A DNA stretch of 40,893 nucleotides from Chloroflexota bacterium. Lineage in GTDB: Bacteria; Chloroflexota; UBA6077; FW602-bin22; JAMCYS01. Positions within the stretch are counted from its first letter, which is position 1, and every line of letters starts with the position of its first letter. The stretch lies in NCBI GenBank assembly GCA_023473795.1, contig JAMCYS010000134.1, positions 1-40,893 on the forward strand, written 5' to 3'. Of this stretch, positions 2,045 to 37,959 are shown piece by piece. The notes beneath the pieces were generated by a model. The model worked only from the letters and a program-made list of their open reading frames with translations. It had not been told where the DNA came from and did no database searches. The translations under genes were made by a program, and so were the position numbers.

Positions 2045-2072
2045 GAGAAAAAGCCCGATTTCTCGGGCTTTT
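2045..2072 (-). terminator. Intrinsic terminator of tRNA-Lys
   Basis: On the minus strand an 8-bp stem AAGCCCGA / TCGGGCTT with a GAAA loop is followed by TTT. It sits a few bases past the tRNA 3' end. The tRNA-Met gene near the other end uses the same GCCCGA-stem design. Confidence 0.85.
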
Positions 2073-3202: not shown

Positions 3203-4525
3203 TTACAACCTGTGGTCCGCTCGCCACTGTGCTAAGCGGTCGGCGAACCTGTCCGTGCTCACAGCCCAGATCGCCAGCACACCGACCGAGACCAGGATGA
3301 TCACCACGTTGATGCCGACGAGGTCGGCCATGGCGCCGACGAAGACGAGGGGCAAGATGGAGGCGACGTTTCCGAGGACGATTTGCACGGCGAAGATGCG
3401 CCCACGCGTGCTGGCGGGCGCCCTTTCCATCAGTATGGTCTGCGAGGGGATAATCACGAACGATAACGCCAGACCCAGGATCGCGGCGATGACCATCACG
3501 ATCGGCACGACGCTGGCCCCGCCGGGCACGGCCGCCCAGCTCAACGCAGGCGCGATCACGGCATCGCCAAGGTTGCGCACCACGGCCAGCGCATTCAGGA
3601 AGACGGCGATCATTGCCAGTCCCGTTGCTACCAGCCTCTCCTTGCTCAGACGCGCGGTCAGCCTGCCCATTAGACTAGTGCCGATGATCACCCCCAAGCC
3701 CGCCGGGGCAAGCACGTACACGGCGTCGTCGGGACGGATGCCGAGCACGGCGACCACGTAGCGGGGGGCCAGCTCGCTCACGATCAGCATCAGGGCCGAG
3801 GCGGTGGTCAGGTGCAGCATAGCCAGCGAGGTGCGCCTGTCGGAGGTGATGAAGCGCCAGCTATCGATCACGTCGTTCCAGACGTGCTGCACCATGGCGC
3901 TCTTGTCAATGCCCGCCAGGGTCCTCTCGGGCGGTGCCTCGGCGGGCAGCTGCCAGACCAGTATCCCTGCCGCCCCAAAGGCGGCAGCGGCGGCGAAGAA
4001 CAGCACCTGCGGGCCGAAGAACTTGACGAGCGGTGGCCCCAGCAGCACGAGGCCCGCCATCTGGGCGGCGTTGTAGGTCAGGTTGAAGAGCGAATTCGCC
4101 GTTATTAGCTGCCGTTTTGAAACCAGCTGGGGGATTTTTGCCGCCTCCGCCGGCGCGAAGAACTGGGTTACCGTCGAGGAGACGAAGTTGACCGCGAAGA
4201 CGAAGGCCAGGGAGCGGTCGTACAGGAGGTATCCCAGGACGACGAGGGCGCGCAGGAAGTTGGTGCTGACTAGCACCTGCCGCTTGCTCATCCGGTCGAC
4301 TAGCGCTCCCGCCACCATGCCCAGCAGGATGGAGGGTATGATCGTCGTCAGTATCGCCAGGCCCATCTGAGCTGTGGAGTGGGTGTATTCCTCGACTACA
4401 ACCAGCAGGCCGAACCAAATTGCGTTCTGGGCCGTTTGCGACACCGCCTGGGCCAACCAGAGAAACATGAAGTTGCGGTTGCGATATATGGCTATGTCGG
4501 CTGTCTCGGGGTTCACTTGCGCCAT
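3203..4525 (-). CDS. Major facilitator superfamily transporter (MFS_3 / EntS-like exporter)
   Basis: This is a polytopic membrane protein of about 440 residues with the expected 12 hydrophobic spans. The loop between TM2 and TM3 carries the MFS signature GALVDRMSKRQVLV (G-x-x-x-D-R-x-x-K/R-R). TM1 begins with RNFMFLWLAQAVSQ, typical of the EntS/MFS_3 group of small-molecule exporters. I chose ATG 4525 (MAQVNPETADIAIYRN), because the frame open further upstream is Arg-rich and overlaps the DUF951 gene; the ribosome site there is weak. It is the last gene of the group pyrF-DUF951-MFS. The substrate is unknown. Confidence 0.85.
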   Translation of the reverse strand: MAQVNPETADIAIYRNRNFMFLWLAQAVSQTAQNAIWFGLLVVVEEYTHSTAQMGLAILTTIIPSILLGMVAGALVDRMSKRQVLVSTNFLRALVVLGYLLYDRSLAFVFAVNFVSSTVTQFFAPAEAAKIPQLVSKRQLITANSLFNLTYNAAQMAGLVLLGPPLVKFFGPQVLFFAAAAAFGAAGILVWQLPAEAPPERTLAGIDKSAMVQHVWNDVIDSWRFITSDRRTSLAMLHLTTASALMLIVSELAPRYVVAVLGIRPDDAVYVLAPAGLGVIIGTSLMGRLTARLSKERLVATGLAMIAVFLNALAVVRNLGDAVIAPALSWAAVPGGASVVPIVMVIAAILGLALSFVIIPSQTILMERAPASTRGRIFAVQIVLGNVASILPLVFVGAMADLVGINVVIILVSVGVLAIWAVSTDRFADRLAQWRADHRL

Positions 4526-13963: not shown

Positions 13964-14329
13964 ATGCGCACGTTGATCATTGTCCTCGCGGTAATGGTCG
14001 GACTACTGGCTGTCGTTCCACTGGTGGTCCTGATCGTCGTCTGGGCAGCGCAGGGGTTCACGGCCGCCGCTGCCTGGGCGGCCATTTACCTGCTTCTCTG
14101 GTCCATACTGCTCACTCTGGTGCCGCTGGCGGTCCTGGCGGTGGCGGTGGTCAAAGGCGCGCCTTTTGCACTTGGCAAGATGGGCTCGTTCTTCGGCAGG
14201 TTCCGGCGACTGGCAGAGCGCTTGGACGGTCTGGTGGCTCGCGCCAGCGGCGTGGCGGTGCGCCCAGACATCTGGTTGTACTCGAAGGCCGCCTGGCTGA
14301 GCGGCTACCTGCACGGCGTGCAGCGTTAG
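13964..14329 (+). CDS. Small membrane protein, unknown function
   Basis: The protein has about 121 residues. ATG 13964 has GAGGGGG at good spacing, while an upstream GTG at 13955 lies within that ribosome site. There are two strong hydrophobic spans: the N-terminal one (IIVLAVMVGLLAVVPLVVLI) and one around residues 42-67 (WAAIYLLLWSILLTLVPLAV). A basic amphipathic part (FGRFRRLAERLDGLVARAS) and a short cytoplasmic tail follow. It follows DUF47 after 13 bp and precedes a glycine-zipper protein, so it may be part of the phosphate-transport operon. No family is recognised. Confidence 0.7.
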   Translation: MRTLIIVLAVMVGLLAVVPLVVLIVVWAAQGFTAAAAWAAIYLLLWSILLTLVPLAVLAVAVVKGAPFALGKMGSFFGRFRRLAERLDGLVARASGVAVRPDIWLYSKAAWLSGYLHGVQR

Positions 14330-14378
14330 TTGACCCTCCGCCGTTCGTAGTCTTTATCAAGGTATCGGAGGTGCGGCT

Positions 14379-14657
14379 GTGAAGATGGAGGTCAACAGGA
14401 GCGACCTGGCAGGGGGACTACTGGCAGGTCTCGCGATTGGCTTGGGAGTTGGCTTGTTGCTGGTTCCCAGGCGAGGTCAGGCTCTGGGGGCGTGGCAGAA
14501 CAGCGAGATGGGCCGTCGTCTCGCCGCTTCAGGCCCGTTAATCTTCGAAGCGGGCCTTGTCGTACTCACCCAGCTGCGCCCCACCTTGGGCCGGCTGGCG
14601 TGGGGCCTGGTGCAACTGGCGGGAAGATCCCGACCGCGAGGCGGGGAGAAGAGCTAG
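14379..14657 (+). CDS. YtxH-like small membrane protein
   Basis: This is a 92-residue protein starting at GTG 14379 with GGAG 7-8 bp upstream. A single glycine-rich span (GGLLAGLAIGLGVGLLLVPR, residues 12-31) ends in PRRGQALGAW, the G-zipper plus P-x-x-G pattern of YtxH-type proteins. A hydrophobic helix and an Arg-rich tail follow. YtxH-like proteins are short envelope proteins often linked to stress, without a defined biochemical role. It is the last gene before the 450-bp structured leader of prkA. Confidence 0.6.
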   Translation: MKMEVNRSDLAGGLLAGLAIGLGVGLLLVPRRGQALGAWQNSEMGRRLAASGPLIFEAGLVVLTQLRPTLGRLAWGLVQLAGRSRPRGGEKS

Positions 14658-14699
14658 CCAGTGGCGCTTGGCAGCCGCGGCTGACGCCGTTGCCGACGC

Positions 14700-15043
14700 C
14701 TGGGGTGTAAGCGGAATGGCACAAAAGCTGCGATTCCCCTGGGGTGAGCGGCGGTGCCGAACTATCCCGAAGCAAAGGTAAGGCGAATGACAAAACCACA
14801 GGATGCCAGGGAAGGGAAGCAAAATCGCTTGGTCATCCCGCAGGTTGTTCACCGAAGACCTCCGGGCTGAGAGCTCTGAGCCACCGGCGGCAATGCTGCC
14901 CCGGAACCGCGCAACGTCAACCTGGTTGAGGGGTCAGGCCCTGCGTGCCGGTTAGTTGTACGGCGATGGGGTAAGCGAGAGGCGGATAGCCGGCGAACGG
15001 GCTGGCTCTCACCAAGTCACTTCGGTGAGAGCCAGCTATTTTT
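14700..15043 (+). ncRNA. Structured leader or small RNA upstream of prkA, class unknown
   Basis: The interval 14658-15103 has no credible gene but many nested complementary segments. GGATG(14801-14805)-CCA pairs with TGG-T-CATCC (to 14838), enclosing GAAGC/GCTT. AGGT pairs with ACCT around 14842-14861. CCGGGCT pairs with AGCC-CCGG, and GGCA-ATGC-TGCC is a compact hairpin (about 14890). GCCGGTTA (14948) pairs with TAGCCGGC to about 14994. The series ends in a perfect intrinsic terminator at 15001-15043, 60 bp before prkA. That layout fits a riboswitch-type attenuator or an independent small RNA. I compared it from memory with the cobalamin, TPP, c-di-GMP, c-di-AMP, fluoride and SAM classes and found no match. 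The 5' boundary is approximate. Confidence 0.4.
15001..15043 (+). terminator. Intrinsic terminator in the prkA leader
   Basis: GCTGGCTCTCACC (15001-15013) pairs perfectly with GGTGAGAGCCAGC (15024-15036) around a 10-nt loop. TATTTTT follows. It lies between an unrecognised structured region and prkA, on the coding strand, so prkA transcripts from upstream must read through it. Confidence 0.88.
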
Positions 15044-15103
15044 GTGCCTTTTTGAGGTAGGTCCGAGAGCGCACCGTGCGGACCAGGGAGGAGCGGATCG
15101 AGA

Positions 15104-16999
15104 ATGAACCTAGTCGAGCGTTTGGAGAAGTACCGCGCCGAGGAACGCAAGCTGGGCTGGCAGGGTACTTTCAAGGAATACTTCGATCTAGTCGCCAAGA
15201 ACCCCAGCCTGGCCCGGCTGTCGCATGCCCGGATCTACGACATGATTACCGCGGCTGGTTCCTACGTGGGCGAGGACGGGGTCAAACACTATCGCTTCTT
15301 TGAGGACGATCTGTTTGGCGTGCAGCACAGCCTCGATCAACTGGTTGAGTACTTCCAGTCGTCTGCTGCCAGACTCGAGATCCGCAAGCGCATCCTGCTC
15401 ATGATGGGCCCGGTTGGCGGCGGCAAGTCCACGATCGTCTCCCTGCTCAAGCGGGGCCTGGAGAAGTACACGCGCAGCGACGAGGGTGCCGTCTATGCCA
15501 TCAAGGGTTGCCCGATGCACGAAGAGCCGCTGCACCTCGTCCCGGACACCATGCGCCCAGAAATCGAGCGCGAATACGGCATCTACATCGAGGGCGATCT
15601 CTGTCCCTCCTGCCAGGTGCGGCTACGCGAGATGTATGGCGACCGGGCCGAGGAGATGCCCGTGGAGCGGGTCGTCTTCTCGGAGAAGACCCGAGTCGGC
15701 ATTGGCACTTTCTCGCCCAGCGATCCCAAGTCGCAGGATATCTCTGAACTCACCGGCAGTATCGATCTGGCCACGATTGGCCAGTATGGCAGTGAGTCCG
15801 ACCCGCGAGCCTACCGCTTTGACGGGGAGCTGAACATCGCCAACCGAGGCATGATGGAGTTCATCGAGATGCTCAAGTCGGATGAGCGGTTCCTCTACGG
15901 CCTGCTCACCCTGTCTCAGGAACAGAACATCAAGACCGGTCGTTTCTCGATGATTTACGCCGACGAGGTGATCGTCTCCCATACGAATGAGAACGAGTAC
16001 AACGCTTTCATCGCTAACAAGCGCTCGGAGGCGCTGCAAGACCGCATCATCGTGGTCAAAGTGCCCTACAACCTGCGTGTGTCGGATGAGACGCGCATCT
16101 ACGACAAGCTGATCCGGCAAAGCGGCCTGCGGGACGTGCACATCGCGCCGCACACGCTCGAGGTGGCTAGCACGTTCGCCATCCTTTCTCGTCTGGAGGA
16201 GTCGAAGAAGGCTGGAATGAGCCTTCTGAAGAAGCTCAAGCTCTATGACGGCGAGGAAGTGGATGGCTTCACCGCCAAGGACGTGAAGGAACTGCGGGAA
16301 GAGGCTAGCCGCGAGGGCATGACGGGCATTTCTCCCCGCTATGTGATCAACCGGCTCTCGGCCGCGCTGGTGAAGGACGACGTCAAGTGCATCAACCCGC
16401 TTGATGCCCTGCGGGCCCTGCGCGACGGCATGGACCAGCACACCACTATCGGCCGCGAGGAGCGGGAACGGATCTTGAATCTATTGGCGGAGGCGCGACG
16501 GGAGTACGACGACGTGGCCAAACGAGAAGTGCAGAAGGCTTTCGTCTACTCCTTCGAGGAATCGGCAAAGTCGCTCTTCAACAACTACATGGACAACGTC
16601 GAGTCATACTGCAATCGCACCAAGTTGCGTGATCCAATCACGGATGAAGAGGTAGAGCCGGACGAGCGTCTGATGCGCTCGATCGAAGAACAAATCGGCA
16701 TCACGGAGACGGCCAAGAAGACCTTCCGCGAGGAGCTACTGATCCGTATGTCGGCGGCAACCCGCCATGGGCAGCGGTTCGATTACACGGCGCACGAGCG
16801 GCTACGGGAGGCTATCGAGAAGAAACTCTTCGCGGACCTCAAGGACGTGATCCGGGTGACCACGTCGGTCAAGGCGCCGGACGCGGAGCAGATGCGGCGG
16901 ATCAACGACGTCACCGAGCGCCTGATCACCGATCACGGCTACTGCCGGATCTGTGCGGGAGAGCTCCTGCAGTACGTGGGGACGCTGTTGAACCGGTAA
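15104..16999 (+). CDS. prkA: PrkA AAA+ / serine protein kinase family protein
   Basis: At 631 residues this is the usual PrkA length. The N-terminal AAA domain has a Walker A loop GPVGGGKST (102-110) and the family signature EYFDLVAKNPSLARLSHARI. The C-terminal kinase-like region includes QKAFVYSFEESAKSLFNNYM and DPITDEEVEPDERLMRSIEE. In the middle a CPxH...CPSC cluster (about 139-171) may bind zinc. PrkA proteins have been described as serine kinases and more recently as AAA+ proteases; they act in sporulation, starvation and nitrogen stress. ATG 15104 is preceded by GGAGGAG. It is the first gene of prkA-yeaH-spoVR, a conserved trio, and is read after an attenuator-like leader. Confidence 0.95.
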   Translation: MNLVERLEKYRAEERKLGWQGTFKEYFDLVAKNPSLARLSHARIYDMITAAGSYVGEDGVKHYRFFEDDLFGVQHSLDQLVEYFQSSAARLEIRKRILLMMGPVGGGKSTIVSLLKRGLEKYTRSDEGAVYAIKGCPMHEEPLHLVPDTMRPEIEREYGIYIEGDLCPSCQVRLREMYGDRAEEMPVERVVFSEKTRVGIGTFSPSDPKSQDISELTGSIDLATIGQYGSESDPRAYRFDGELNIANRGMMEFIEMLKSDERFLYGLLTLSQEQNIKTGRFSMIYADEVIVSHTNENEYNAFIANKRSEALQDRIIVVKVPYNLRVSDETRIYDKLIRQSGLRDVHIAPHTLEVASTFAILSRLEESKKAGMSLLKKLKLYDGEEVDGFTAKDVKELREEASREGMTGISPRYVINRLSAALVKDDVKCINPLDALRALRDGMDQHTTIGREERERILNLLAEARREYDDVAKREVQKAFVYSFEESAKSLFNNYMDNVESYCNRTKLRDPITDEEVEPDERLMRSIEEQIGITETAKKTFREELLIRMSAATRHGQRFDYTAHERLREAIEKKLFADLKDVIRVTTSVKAPDAEQMRRINDVTERLITDHGYCRICAGELLQYVGTLLNR

Positions 17000-17145
17000 A
17001 TCAGCCACCGCCCGGACGAGCTGTCCGGGTGAGCACGGAACCCCGGGGACGCGGTTTCGATGAGTCCCCGGGAGGGCGCCGGAGCAGGGCTAGTGGGTAC
17101 GTAGGTGGGGTTTCTCCAGCAGATGGGGAAAGAGGAGGCGCTACA

Positions 17146-18324
17146 GTGGAACGTATTATCAATCTCTCCAAGCGCGACTGGTCGCTCTACCGTAGGGGTC
17201 CGATCGACCAGGCTCGGCACAACGAGAAGGTGAAAGAGGCCATCAAAGCCAACCTGCAGGACATCATTAGCGAGGAGGCCATAATCTCCTCCGATGGCAA
17301 GCGGGTGGTCAAGGTGCCGGTGCGTTCGCTGGAGCTGCCGCACTTCCGGTTCGACCCCAACAAGAGCCGGCAGGCCGGCCAGGGCTCCGGCAAAGGCGAG
17401 CCCGGCGAGCAGGGCTCCGAAGACGGGCAGACCGTGGGCCCGGGTCGGGGCAAGGGAGCCGGCGACCAACCGGGCCTCGACTACTTCGAGGCGGACGTTA
17501 CGGTGGACGAGCTGGCAGATGTCCTCTTCGAGGACTTGAGTCTGCCCTTCATGGAGAACAAAGGTGGCCAGGAGCTGGAGGCGCCTGACATCCAGTTTAC
17601 CGACCTGCGCAAGAGCGGCAGCCTGGCCAATCTGGACAAGAAGCGGACGATCATTCAGAACATCCGCCGCAACGCCATGGGCGGGCACCCAGCCTACGAA
17701 AGCCTGCGCGACGAGGACCTCCGCTACCGGACCTGGCAGAGCGACGTTCGCCGGGAGAGCAATGCCGTGGTCATCGCCATGCGCGACGTTTCGGGCAGCA
17801 TGGGTGAGTTCGAAAAGTACATAACGCGCAGTTTCTATTTCTGGATGGTTCGCTTCCTACGGACCAAGTACAGCAACGTGCAGCTGGTCTTCATCACGCA
17901 CCACACCGAGGCCAAAGAGGTCGACGAGGAAACCTTCTTCAAGTTGGGGGAAAGTGGTGGCACTAAGGTGTCGTCTGCTTACCAGTTGGCGTTGAAGGTC
18001 ATCCGCGAGCGCTACAGCCCGCAACTGTGGAATATCTATCCGATCCATTTCTCGGACGGGGACAACTGGGGTGAGAAGGACAACAATCTCTGCGTCGAGC
18101 TGGTGTACAAACTGATCGATATGTCGAACCTTTTCGGTTACGGCGAGATTCAGGAGGGCGGCTATCGCTCCCTCAGCACGCTGATGTCGGCTTTCCAAAA
18201 CATACGTACCGAGCGCTTCATAGGCGTCACCATCACCGACCGGAAAGACGTCTATCCGGCTCTGAAGAGATTCTTCGCCCGTCGCGAGGCGCCGGCTGAT
18301 TTGGAGGAAAGAGAGGCGGCGTAG
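17146..18324 (+). CDS. yeaH: YeaH/YhbH family protein (DUF444), von Willebrand A-like
   Basis: The protein has 392 residues from GTG 17146, where GAGGAGG lies 7 bp upstream; the frame extends to 17029 but that part is low-complexity and lacks a ribosome site. An N-terminal basic region (IINLSKRDWSLYRRGPIDQA) precedes a Gly/Glu-rich linker. The C-terminal vWA-like domain carries a metal-site motif DVSGSM, a GGTKVSS threonine loop, and HFSDGDNWGEKDN, the expected three MIDAS elements. The family travels with PrkA and SpoVR, and its members are needed for stress persistence in enterobacteria. The gene is 147 bp after prkA and 5 bp before spoVR. Confidence 0.93.
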   Translation: MERIINLSKRDWSLYRRGPIDQARHNEKVKEAIKANLQDIISEEAIISSDGKRVVKVPVRSLELPHFRFDPNKSRQAGQGSGKGEPGEQGSEDGQTVGPGRGKGAGDQPGLDYFEADVTVDELADVLFEDLSLPFMENKGGQELEAPDIQFTDLRKSGSLANLDKKRTIIQNIRRNAMGGHPAYESLRDEDLRYRTWQSDVRRESNAVVIAMRDVSGSMGEFEKYITRSFYFWMVRFLRTKYSNVQLVFITHHTEAKEVDEETFFKLGESGGTKVSSAYQLALKVIRERYSPQLWNIYPIHFSDGDNWGEKDNNLCVELVYKLIDMSNLFGYGEIQEGGYRSLSTLMSAFQNIRTERFIGVTITDRKDVYPALKRFFARREAPADLEEREAA

Positions 18325-18329
18325 TCGAT

Positions 18330-19751
18330 ATGGATCGCGAAGTAACGGAACTGGAGCAAGCCATTGGCCGTGCTTGGGACGTAGCCCGCGGTTTCGGCCT
18401 TGACCCGTTCGACCTCCGCTTCGAACTGGTGCCCGCCAACATAATGTACGAGTTCGGCGCCTACGGACTGCCGACCAGGTTCTCGCACTGGACCTACGGG
18501 CGCACCTACCAAGAAATGAAGACTATGTACGACTATGGGCTCAACAAGATCTACGAGCTCGTGATCAATACGGATCCGTGCTATGCTTTCCTCTTGGACT
18601 CCAATTCGGTCCTGCAGAACAAGTTGGTCGTGGCCCACGTGATCGGCCACTCCGACTTCTTCAAGAACAACGTCTACTTCCAGGAGACTCCGCGCGATAT
18701 GCTGGAAAGCGCTGCCGTCAACGCCGACCGCATCCGCGCCTACGAGTACCGCCACGGCAAACTAGCGGTGGAGCAGTTCCTGGACGCGGTATTGGCCCTC
18801 CAGGAGCACGTGGACCCCAACCAGATCATTCGCCGCCAACAGGAGCGGCAGCGCGGACTGAAGGTGGTGTCACGCCCTCGCCAGCGTCAGGGGCCGTATG
18901 ACGACCTGCTCAGCGTGGGTCTTCTGGAAGAGCAGCATGAGGCGCCACCCGCCCAACAGGCCAAGTTCCCAGTCGAACCGGAAAAGGATCTACTGCTCTT
19001 TCTGATGGAGAACTCCACTGCCCTTAGCGACTGGCAGCGCGACGTCGTGGCGATAGTGCGCGCGGAGATGCTCTATTTTACGCCGCAAATGCGTACCAAG
19101 ATAATGAACGAGGGCTGGGCTAGCTTCTGGCACTCGCGCATAATGCGCGAGCTCGAGCTGACAGACGGCGAAGCCTTTGAGTTTGCCCGCCTGCACGCCG
19201 GCGTGCTTAGCCCTAGCGGCCAGCAGCTCAACCCGTACTATGTGGGCTTCAAGCTCTTCGAAGACCTCGAGCGTCGCTGGGACCATCCTACCACCGCGGA
19301 ACGCGCGCGGTACGGCCGGCAGCCCGGGCAGGGGCGGGCGAAGATCTTCGAGGTCCGCGAGACGGAGAGCGACGTCTCTTTCCTACGCAACTACCTGACT
19401 GAGGAACTGGTTAGGGAGCTGGATCTGCACGTCTACAAGCAAGAAGGAGAAGAAACTAGACAGGACGAAGAGAACTGGGAGGAAGTGCGCGACTTCCTGG
19501 TCAACAGCATGTCCAACTTTGGTCACCCCTACCTGCTGGTCACGGACGGCAACTTCGAGGGCCGGGGAGAGTTGTTGATTGAACACGTCTTCGAGGGACA
19601 GGAGCTGGACCAGAAATACGCCGAGCGTACTCTTCCCTATCTCTACCGACTGTGGGGCCAACCTGTGCACGTGCAGACGGTGATCGATGAGAAACCGCAC
19701 ATGCTCACCTACGCCAATGCCGACGAAGGAATGACCAAACGACGACTGTAA
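18330..19751 (+). CDS. spoVR: SpoVR family protein
   Basis: At 473 residues this matches the length of Bacillus SpoVR. Family segments are visible: GLDPFDLRFELVPANIMYEF near the N-terminus, then LPTRFSHWTYGRTYQEMKT, and the histidine-rich block VVAHVIGHSDFFKNNVYF. The C-terminus has MNEGWASFWHSRIM and a segment YYVGFKLFEDLERRW. SpoVR is needed for spore cortex formation in Bacillus, but homologues are common in non-sporulating bacteria beside prkA and yeaH. No other sporulation gene is in the window, so the stress-response reading is more likely. A strong hairpin follows the stop. Confidence 0.95.
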   Translation: MDREVTELEQAIGRAWDVARGFGLDPFDLRFELVPANIMYEFGAYGLPTRFSHWTYGRTYQEMKTMYDYGLNKIYELVINTDPCYAFLLDSNSVLQNKLVVAHVIGHSDFFKNNVYFQETPRDMLESAAVNADRIRAYEYRHGKLAVEQFLDAVLALQEHVDPNQIIRRQQERQRGLKVVSRPRQRQGPYDDLLSVGLLEEQHEAPPAQQAKFPVEPEKDLLLFLMENSTALSDWQRDVVAIVRAEMLYFTPQMRTKIMNEGWASFWHSRIMRELELTDGEAFEFARLHAGVLSPSGQQLNPYYVGFKLFEDLERRWDHPTTAERARYGRQPGQGRAKIFEVRETESDVSFLRNYLTEELVRELDLHVYKQEGEETRQDEENWEEVRDFLVNSMSNFGHPYLLVTDGNFEGRGELLIEHVFEGQELDQKYAERTLPYLYRLWGQPVHVQTVIDEKPHMLTYANADEGMTKRRL

Positions 19752-19766: not shown

Positions 19767-19811
19767 GCCAACGAAGAAGCGGAGTCGGTTCGACTCCGCT
19801 TCTTCGTTGGC
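19767..19811. terminator. Bidirectional terminator hairpin between spoVR and the convergent pfk gene
   Basis: A perfect 21-bp stem, GCCAACGAAGAAGCGGAGTCG with a GTT loop and its exact complement, lies in the 76-bp gap between two convergent genes. The stem's own A/T segments (GAAGAA / TTCTTC) may supply the weak tract. No separate T-run follows. Confidence 0.75.
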
Positions 19812-20856: not shown

Positions 20857-21140
20857 CTCTCCATCACCCCTAGGCTTGCGCCCGCCAATTAAGTCTTCCC
20901 GCCAAACGAGCGGAGAGCCGCCGTCCTGCCGGTCTACTGCCAGCGTCAACCGGGTGGCGGTGATGCTTGGGGCGCTGCAGCCTCAATATGAATCAAAGAA
21001 CAGTGCCGCTGCCGCGCGTGCTCGGCTGAATATCAACCAAACCAACGTCGCCAACGCGACTCCGTCAACATAATAGCGGGTGGCGTACCCTGACGTCAAG
21101 GAGTTTGCCGCGGGAAACGCCTGGCCGCTGGGCGACCTTA

Positions 21141-21169
21141 TTGACTTGGCAGCACGTCAGCCGTATATT
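21141..21169 (+). promoter_or_regulatory. Promoter of the ECF sigma factor gene
   Basis: TTGACT (21141-21146) and TATATT (21164-21169) are 17 bp apart, 38 bp before the sigma-factor start. This is a housekeeping-type promoter. I see no GGAAC-type ECF promoter, so self-activation is not supported. The stretch 20857-21140 holds no gene that I can see. Confidence 0.65.
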
Positions 21170-21206
21170 CGTGCCGGCCCACAAGAGCCTTACCAGAAGG
21201 GCAGCA

Positions 21207-21809
21207 ATGGACGAGAGCAGCCTCATCGCCGCCAGCCTGAGAGGCGAGGTCCGGGCCTTCAACCGGCTGGTTGAAGCATACCAGGACCTGGCCTTCAACG
21301 TGGCCTATAGGATGCTGAGCGACCGTGACGCCGCCGCAGACGTGACGCAGGACGCCTTCATCGCTGCCTACAGGGCGTTGCCCCAGTTTCACGGCGGCTC
21401 CTTTCGCTCCTGGCTGCTTCGCATAGTCACCAACGGCTGCTACGACTTCCTCAGGGCACGCCAGCGCCATCAGCAGAGCTCCCTAGAGAGTATGCTCGAG
21501 ACTGGGGATGACCTGGGGCTATCAACTGAGCCCAGCCAGTCCCCCGAGAGTCTGGCGCTTTCGCGCGAAATGCTGGGCGCCATCGCCAAGGGACTAGCCA
21601 AATTGCCCCCGGATCAGCGGGCGGCGGTCGTTCTCTCTGACGTCCAGGGCTTCAGTTACGAAGAGATAGCCGAGGTGATGGAATGCTCGCTCGGCACCGT
21701 CAAGTCCCGTCTTAGCCGCGGCCGTGGCCGCCTGCGCGAGATTCTACTGGCGGAAAGGGAACTTTTGCCGGGGCGCTTCCGTCTTCTCCATGGCGGTGAA
21801 ATGACGTGA
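21207..21809 (+). CDS. ECF-type RNA polymerase sigma factor
   Basis: The protein has 200 residues, from ATG 21207. Sigma region 2 is complete: the -10 recognition and core-binding helix RMLSDRDAAADVTQDAFIAA, then FHGGSFRSWLLRIVTNGCYD. A variable linker (residues 101-125) follows. Region 4 ends it with LPPDQRAAVVLSDVQGFSYE, then EIAEVMECSLGTVKSRLSRG, the helix-turn-helix for -35 contact. There is no region 1 or 3, hence ECF. The stop overlaps the next start (GTGA), and the next gene is a zinc-finger anti-sigma protein, so the pair forms a stress-sensing switch. The target genes are unknown. Confidence 0.95.
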   Translation: MDESSLIAASLRGEVRAFNRLVEAYQDLAFNVAYRMLSDRDAAADVTQDAFIAAYRALPQFHGGSFRSWLLRIVTNGCYDFLRARQRHQQSSLESMLETGDDLGLSTEPSQSPESLALSREMLGAIAKGLAKLPPDQRAAVVLSDVQGFSYEEIAEVMECSLGTVKSRLSRGRGRLREILLAERELLPGRFRLLHGGEMT

Positions 21810-22732
21810 ACATTCTTCGCGGTTGGCAGCACAAGCAGGGTTGCGAAGGTATCGGACCTTTGCTCTCGCCCTACATAGACGGCAGGACCCGGCCCGAGGA
21901 GACTCGGCTGGTGCAACAGCACTTGGCGTCTTGCGCGGACTGCCAGCTGGAGTTGGAGCAGTTGCGACTGGTCGTGCAGGGGCTACAGACCCTGCCACAG
22001 GTTCGCCCTTCTCGCTCATTCGCGCTAGCGGCGCCACCGGCTCGGGTGCAGGTGCCACCAACCGTGAGCAACATCGTCTACCTGCGCCGGCTCGCGGTCT
22101 CGCTGGCGGCTAGCCTGGTCCTTCTCTTCGCCTTCGCTTTGCAGGCCGGCCTGCCCGCGGCGTTCGTGTCGCGGGCCAGCCAGCCGGCCGCTGCTCCCGC
22201 CAAAGTTACCGGCCTGGCCGCCAACGGGGACAGTGGCCGGGCGACGGCCGCTGCCGCCCGCAAAGTGGCGCCGCAGGCAGCCGCCGCTCCCACAGCGGAA
22301 ACGAACACCGCCCCGGCTCAGGCGCTTGCTGCCGCGCCGGCACCGGCGGCGACCGAGCCGGCCGACGCGGCAAAGGCGGCGAGCGCACCCGCCGCCCCGG
22401 CCGCGGGCGCACCGCTTGCGCCGACGCCGGCAGGTGCGATACTGGCTCCGGCCACGGCCGCACAGGTCCCGTCGCCCGTGCCGCCTCAGGTCGCTGGGCA
22501 GTCCCCCGCTCCGGCCGAATCGGCGCCAGCGCCCCTAGCGCGGGCGCCGCAGTCCACAGCCGCCCCCGTGGCGCCACCCGCATCGTCAGCCACGAGCGCC
22601 CCCGACACTCAAGGGGAAGCTGGGGTGCAATCGGTGCGCTCGTTCTTCTGGGAAGCGGAGTTGGCCCTGGCATTGGGCCTGCTTCTTGTTGCGGTCGCCA
22701 TCATCCTCGGCCGCCGCTCTGTCGGTTCCTAG
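21806..22732 (+). CDS. Zinc-finger anti-sigma factor with a Pro/Ala-rich exported part
   Basis: The protein has 308 residues from a GTG that overlaps the sigma-factor stop. The N-terminal ZAS domain has H39-x3-C43-x2-C46 (HLASCADC), the zinc motif that clamps ECF sigma factors. A membrane span follows at about 92-112 (LAVSLAASLVLLFAFALQAG), then about 160 residues of Ala/Pro/Thr low complexity, and a second hydrophobic span at the C-terminus (LALALGLLLVAVAIILG). The low-complexity part probably spans the cell wall. The second membrane anchor is unusual for this family and would make the middle a tethered external loop. It presumably holds the sigma factor inactive until an envelope signal arrives. 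Confidence 0.9.
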   Translation: MNILRGWQHKQGCEGIGPLLSPYIDGRTRPEETRLVQQHLASCADCQLELEQLRLVVQGLQTLPQVRPSRSFALAAPPARVQVPPTVSNIVYLRRLAVSLAASLVLLFAFALQAGLPAAFVSRASQPAAAPAKVTGLAANGDSGRATAAAARKVAPQAAAAPTAETNTAPAQALAAAPAPAATEPADAAKAASAPAAPAAGAPLAPTPAGAILAPATAAQVPSPVPPQVAGQSPAPAESAPAPLARAPQSTAAPVAPPASSATSAPDTQGEAGVQSVRSFFWEAELALALGLLLVAVAIILGRRSVGS

Positions 22733-37934: not shown

Positions 37935-37959
37935 GAAGCCCGATATATCGGGCTTCTTT
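37935..37959 (+). terminator. Intrinsic terminator of tRNA-Met
   Basis: GAAGCCCGAT (37935-37944) pairs with ATCGGGCTTC (37947-37956), followed by TTT. The tRNA-Lys terminator has the same GCCCGA stem. Confidence 0.85.

Follow-up and report, generated by a model that had tools for sequence, protein, structure and literature searches.

What controls the prkA-yeaH-spoVR operon of a Chloroflexota bacterium, and is the DNA directly ahead of prkA a riboswitch, an attenuator, or the end of something else? We addressed this in a 40,893-nt stretch of DNA (the window; metagenome-assembled genome G000, contig C71, with its prkA locus coded L003). A sequence-only reading of its intergenic region, 14658-15103, which begins directly after the stop of a 92-aa membrane-type ORF and ends at prkA, had described several nested stems followed by a perfect 13-bp terminator and had proposed an attenuator or riboswitch of a starvation-response operon. 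Our analysis indicates that the terminator is probably a brake on the prkA operon, not a riboswitch. The genes preceding the 92-aa ORF match PHO4 and PhoU_div (Pfam); the ORF itself has no Pfam match and, judged by eye, is presumably YtxH-like. The window's own family is represented by one genome in our comparison set, and, by PrkA comparison, most of its closest named relatives are Chloroflexi metagenome-assembled genomes. Coordinates of the features discussed are collected in Table 1.

Table 1 Features of the prkA locus and other hairpins in the window
Feature	Position	Strand	Evidence
Upstream gene, 92-aa glycine-rich membrane-type ORF, ending phosphate-transporter / DUF47 cluster	14379..14657	+	ORF list
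Perfect 12-bp palindrome CAGCCGCGGCTG, 45 bp 5′ of -24 element; candidate activator site	14672..14683	.	sequence
Putative sigma-54 (-24/-12) promoter TGGCACAAAAGCTGCG, GG-N10-GC; predicted transcription start near 14743	14717..14732	+	consensus match, rpoN in genome
Predicted 5′ leader, conserved structure not detected	14743..14999	+	fold z +0.71; antiterminator, Rfam, and DNA searches null
Predicted intrinsic terminator, proposed attenuator	15000..15043	+	fold z -7.85; strict terminator search of window
Candidate small hairpin GGTCCG...CGGACC, immediately 5′ of ribosome-binding site	15060..15084	+	sequence reading
prkA ribosome-binding site AGGGAGGAG	15085..15093	+	sequence reading
prkA (yeaG homologue)	15104..16999	+	PF08298, PF06798; AAA_PrkA E 7.8e-131
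yeaH (DUF444)	17029..18324	+	PF04285
spoVR	18330..19751	+	PF04293
Bidirectional terminator-like hairpin, operon end, between spoVR and convergent pfkA	19778..19800	.	terminator search
tRNA-trailing terminator-like hairpin	2050-2071	-	
tRNA-trailing terminator-like hairpin	37935-37956	+	

A strong predicted terminator precedes prkA

The terminator has the form GCTGGCTCTCACC-(AAGTCACTTC)-GGTGAGAGCCAGC, a perfect 13-bp stem (15001-15013 paired with 15024-15036) around a 10-nt loop, and a G-T pair at 15000/15037, after which ATTTTTGTGCCTTTTT follows, lengthens the stem. The U-tract lies directly 3′ of the hairpin (TATTTTTGTGCCTTTTT, with the T-run at 15039-15043), and 60 nt separate the end of the T-run from the prkA ATG, so that the stem and spacing given in the sequence-only reading are exact. 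Folded alone, the element reaches -29.5 kcal/mol (shuffles: -11.9 ± 2.2 kcal/mol, z = -7.85). By hairpin stability and U-tract, it is an intrinsic (Rho-independent) terminator at which termination is predicted, and its U-tract is the clearest among the terminator-like hairpins of the window. The terminator is unidirectional, towards prkA only, and stands 343 nt past the last upstream gene, whereas the window's other clear gene-end terminators stand 6-30 nt past theirs. A simple scan with a loop limit of 8 nt did not report it, because its loop exceeds that limit.

A putative sigma-54 promoter lies ahead of the terminator

We compared the 500-900 nt 5′ of prkA at about 100 loci. In the window, the candidate sigma-54 site at 14717-14732 is the sole recognizable promoter ahead of the terminator: a search of 14000-15700 returned no sigma-70 promoter, and the 60 nt between terminator and prkA hold no recognizable promoter. 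Measured against GG-N10-GC in a TGGCAC / TTGC context, the site has exact spacing, a perfect -24 element, and an imperfect -12 element (CTGCG), and was evaluated with a simple consensus score devised for this analysis and tested against shuffles only (P = 0.023). High-scoring GG-N10-GC sites, evaluated in the same way, lie 5′ of prkA in L004, L005, L008, L009, L010, L015, L026, L027, L028, and L041 (shuffle P ≤ 0.007 each). The genome of the window encodes rpoN (Sigma54_DBD, E = 3.7e-38), as do those searched relatives that have prkA sigma-54 sites. We did not find rpoN in two hairpin-bearing lineages, G004 (L007) and G269 (L105), and its absence there is probable, not certain, because the two draft assemblies reach 88% and 95% completeness; in both, a TTGACA-N17 promoter likewise lies 5′ of the hairpin. 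The palindrome upstream of the window's -24 element is not common to other lineages, and no common activator site was found 5′ of the relatives' sigma-54 promoters.

Neither hairpin nor sigma-54 site is universal at this operon. The related lineages L005, L010, and L015 have a sigma-54 promoter near prkA and no hairpin, and the terminator is therefore not essential to prkA control. A promoter-like motif TGAATCnTTT...GCATCTAA stands directly 5′ of prkA, 59-109 nt before the gene, in L012, L013, L014, L016, L017, and L023, and an ECF-sigma-like gene lies just 5′ in L011, L012, L014, L016, and L017; to judge from this arrangement, prkA there seems to be under the adjacent ECF sigma factor in place of sigma-54.

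The leader upstream of the terminator folds like random sequence

The nested stems described earlier did not survive comparison with shuffles. The whole intergenic region folds at z = -2.3, because the terminator is included; the remainder (14745-14995) gives z = +0.71, and 148 of 200 shuffles matched or surpassed its stability. The absence of a recognizable riboswitch core, already remarked in the sequence-only reading, was borne out by a scan of 14658-15103 against Rfam, which returned nothing at the gathering score; with the cutoff relaxed to E = 10, no riboswitch class appeared, only chance-level non-riboswitch matches. A DNA search of 101 genomes with the leader matched its own genome only, and no alignable leader was found in the relatives. 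Duplex energies between leader and terminator 5′ arm were similar to those of shuffled leaders in the window and eight relatives, and hairpins with the ANTAR hexaloop ANNGNN were absent from the window and, but for a single match in L007 that looks like chance, from the relatives. The leader, having no excess folding, Rfam match, conservation, or 5′-arm pairing, thus gives no sign of an aptamer or a switching antiterminator. A ligand-binding riboswitch is unlikely, as neither an aptamer nor a switching structure is visible.

Two specific candidates were rejected. A classical switching attenuator was set aside because the terminator 5′ arm has no excess pairing in any of the nine lineages. Pairing of a UCGACU loop motif with the start of prkA was dropped because AGTCGAG, found in codons 3-5 in the window, is absent from the relatives with the loop motif.

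A hairpin is conserved ahead of prkA in relatives

In L003 (the window), L004, L008, L026, L027, and L028, a sigma-54 site is followed after 100-270 nt by a terminator or hairpin, and this after a further 60-140 nt by prkA. A hairpin, often a terminator, is kept in the promoter-to-prkA interval in many lineages. In L004, L007, L008, L027, L028, L034, and L105 it combines a GGGC stem with a loop region in which UCGACU is invariant, and a promoter was recognized 5′ of it in L004, L007, L008, L027, L028, and L105. Ktedonobacteria (Thermogemmatispora, Ktedonobacter, and kin) have a related hairpin (GGAAAGGGCUGGUUCUC...) ~265-330 nt ahead of prkA. We defined this Chloroflexota prkA leader hairpin, which is not in Rfam 15, from 18 sequences and represented it by two models, R1 and R2; an Rfam scan of the hairpin region at 12 of the loci returned no match.

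Stem covariation exceeds that of shuffles both in the 18 sequences (0.245 vs. 0.176 ± 0.019) and in a set of seven (0.255 vs. 0.124 ± 0.030), the score being reached by 0 of 500 shuffles in each case, under a shuffle control that leaves the relatedness of the sequences in; covariation was lower in all slid controls. When R2 was run over 400 Chloroflexota genomes, the five known prkA copies came out on top, followed by four weaker, shorter matches. A search with the loop pattern gave ten matches, three of which are prkA leaders, the others being, by inspection, in or resembling coding sequence; on the same grounds we rejected TCGACTCTAT as a genome-wide element. From these searches, the leader hairpin appears to be essentially prkA-specific. 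The genes annotated upstream of prkA in L008 and L026 (AAA, HD domain) are divergent from it; the hairpin is therefore not their terminator, and only prkA-directed transcripts carry it.

The window hairpin occupies the family position (sigma-54 site at 14717, hairpin at 15000-15037, prkA at 15104), and its 5′ arm starts with GGGCUGG as in the family, some members of which also have a U-tract. Its loop, however, is AAGUCACUUC, and the invariant UCGACU is absent. R1 scores it at 10 bits (E = 0.011 within 511 nt) and does not find it at whole-window or genome scale, and R2 has zero matches in the whole window. Because the loop differs, the R1 match is weak, and both models are silent at larger scale, we class the window hairpin as an ordinary intrinsic terminator at the corresponding site, an analogue or possibly a highly diverged member of the family. 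Covariation among relatives, proposed earlier as a check on the leader, is found in the hairpin of other lineages, but the models do not recognize the window copy as a member of that family, and the leader aligns with nothing.

Two observations accompany the relatives' hairpins. In the Ktedonobacteria L051, L116, L129, L130, L133, and L140, another block, AAGGAyr..TTGAAACATTGCAGGAGCATC-N4-6-GATGCATC, is conserved 5′ of the hairpin and resembles a small hairpin or start site; a leader peptide (TTG/GTG start after AAGGA) was considered and rejected, as the reading frame is not kept. In L034, a metagenome-assembled genome labeled Armatimonadetes with a PrkA that shares 72% identity with the window's, positions 3420-3466 (-), 5′ of the prkA region, match the Acido-Lenti-1 RNA (RF01687) just at the gathering score.

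Possible roles of the terminator

The best explanation, to which we give somewhat better than even credence, is a sigma-54-driven prkA 5′ leader with an intrinsic attenuator; we infer promoter use, termination, and regulation from the sequence. The sigma-54 promoter would transcribe leader and operon when its enhancer-binding activator is on, RNA polymerase would reach the strong terminator about 260 nt downstream of the start, and most transcripts would end there. Full operon expression would then need read-through, either constant at a low fraction or increased by a trans-acting antiterminator, whose target might be the hairpin or the polymerase. An attenuator in a sigma-54-driven 5′ UTR is the simplest reading because the terminator lies downstream of the sole recognizable promoter and far past the upstream gene, is followed by 60 nt with no recognizable promoter, and has counterparts in L008 and L026 behind divergent genes. 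Of the original proposal, then, the attenuator part is upheld by the order promoter, terminator, prkA and by the like arrangement in relatives, and the riboswitch part falls for want of fold, pairing, Rfam class, and conservation. A more specific and rather tentative proposal is that Chloroflexota possess an uncatalogued cis-regulatory hairpin in the prkA-yeaH-spoVR leader (GGGCUGG stem, UCGACU(CUAU) loop region), kept through sigma-54/sigma-70 promoter swaps and read by an RNA-binding antiterminator; the window copy of this hairpin would then have diverged strongly, with little left but a strong terminator.

The same promoter and terminator would also bound a discrete unit of about 300 nt, which might be a trans-acting small RNA ending at 15043, with prkA expressed by incidental read-through or from an unrecognized promoter. 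In its favor, the UCGACU(CUAU) segment conserved in the loops of other lineages could serve for trans base pairing or protein binding; against it, the leader sequence is unconserved between lineages and folds like random sequence, and in L105 and the window too little DNA separates the hairpin from prkA to hold a clear promoter. We regard a small RNA as doubtful. We likewise find it improbable that the hairpin belongs to the upstream phosphate-transporter cluster as its normal 3′ terminator, or serves as an insulator, with the prkA promoter in the last 60 nt. In the window, the genes of that cluster share the strand of prkA, and the ECF-dependent lineages do have a promoter directly 5′ of prkA; yet the distance from the last gene is out of keeping with the window's other clear terminators, no promoter motif was seen in 15044-15095, the sigma-54 site sits between upstream gene and terminator, and the upstream gene is divergent in L008 and L026. 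A long leader followed by a terminator ahead of a metabolic-stress operon is what an undescribed class of riboswitch, or another ligand-sensing leader, might look like, but with leader structure not beyond chance, antiterminator excess in 0 of 9 lineages, no Rfam class or conserved leader sequence, and no ANTAR-type hexaloop pair, we hold such control of the terminator to be very improbable.

Comparison with known systems

The Klebsiella nasF operon combines an Ntr/sigma-54 promoter with a leader terminator and NasR antitermination (PMC5424462). It offers a possible parallel to the window, in that Ntr-type control of initiation is joined there to a leader hairpin stopping transcription early ahead of a nitrogen-related operon (PMC5424462); the window differs in its operon and in having no ANTAR hexaloop (ANNGNN) hairpins. 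A second comparison is the homologous yeaGH operon of E. coli, for which passages of PMC4664914 and PMC10954441 describe NtrC-activated, RpoN- and RpoS-dependent promoters, so that a sigma-54 input to the Chloroflexota operon is not unexpected. The same passages place the sRNA SdsR at UTR -31 to -22, acting post-transcriptionally, and make no mention of a leader terminator. According to PMC10954441, PrkA/YeaG-YeaH is in E. coli a metabolic brake during starvation under NtrC/sigma-54 control.

The sigma-54 sites in Chloroflexota, together with the sigma-70-type promoters of the two lineages probably lacking rpoN, suggest a regulatory link that is very old or was repeatedly reached. The leader terminator, if it acts as proposed, would be a second layer of control on the prkA operon, and the relatives' conserved hairpin offers a defined starting point in the search for the factor that recognizes it.

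Other features of the window

At 21105-22732, 1.3 kb past spoVR, an ECF sigma factor gene overlaps a gene of anti-sigma type (zf-HC2); given the ECF-prkA linkage in relatives, this proximity may not be accidental. Both tRNA genes of the window are followed within ~10 nt 3′ by a similar 9-bp terminator-like hairpin (AAAGCCCGAGAAATCGGGCTTT and GAAGCCCGATATATCGGGCTTC).
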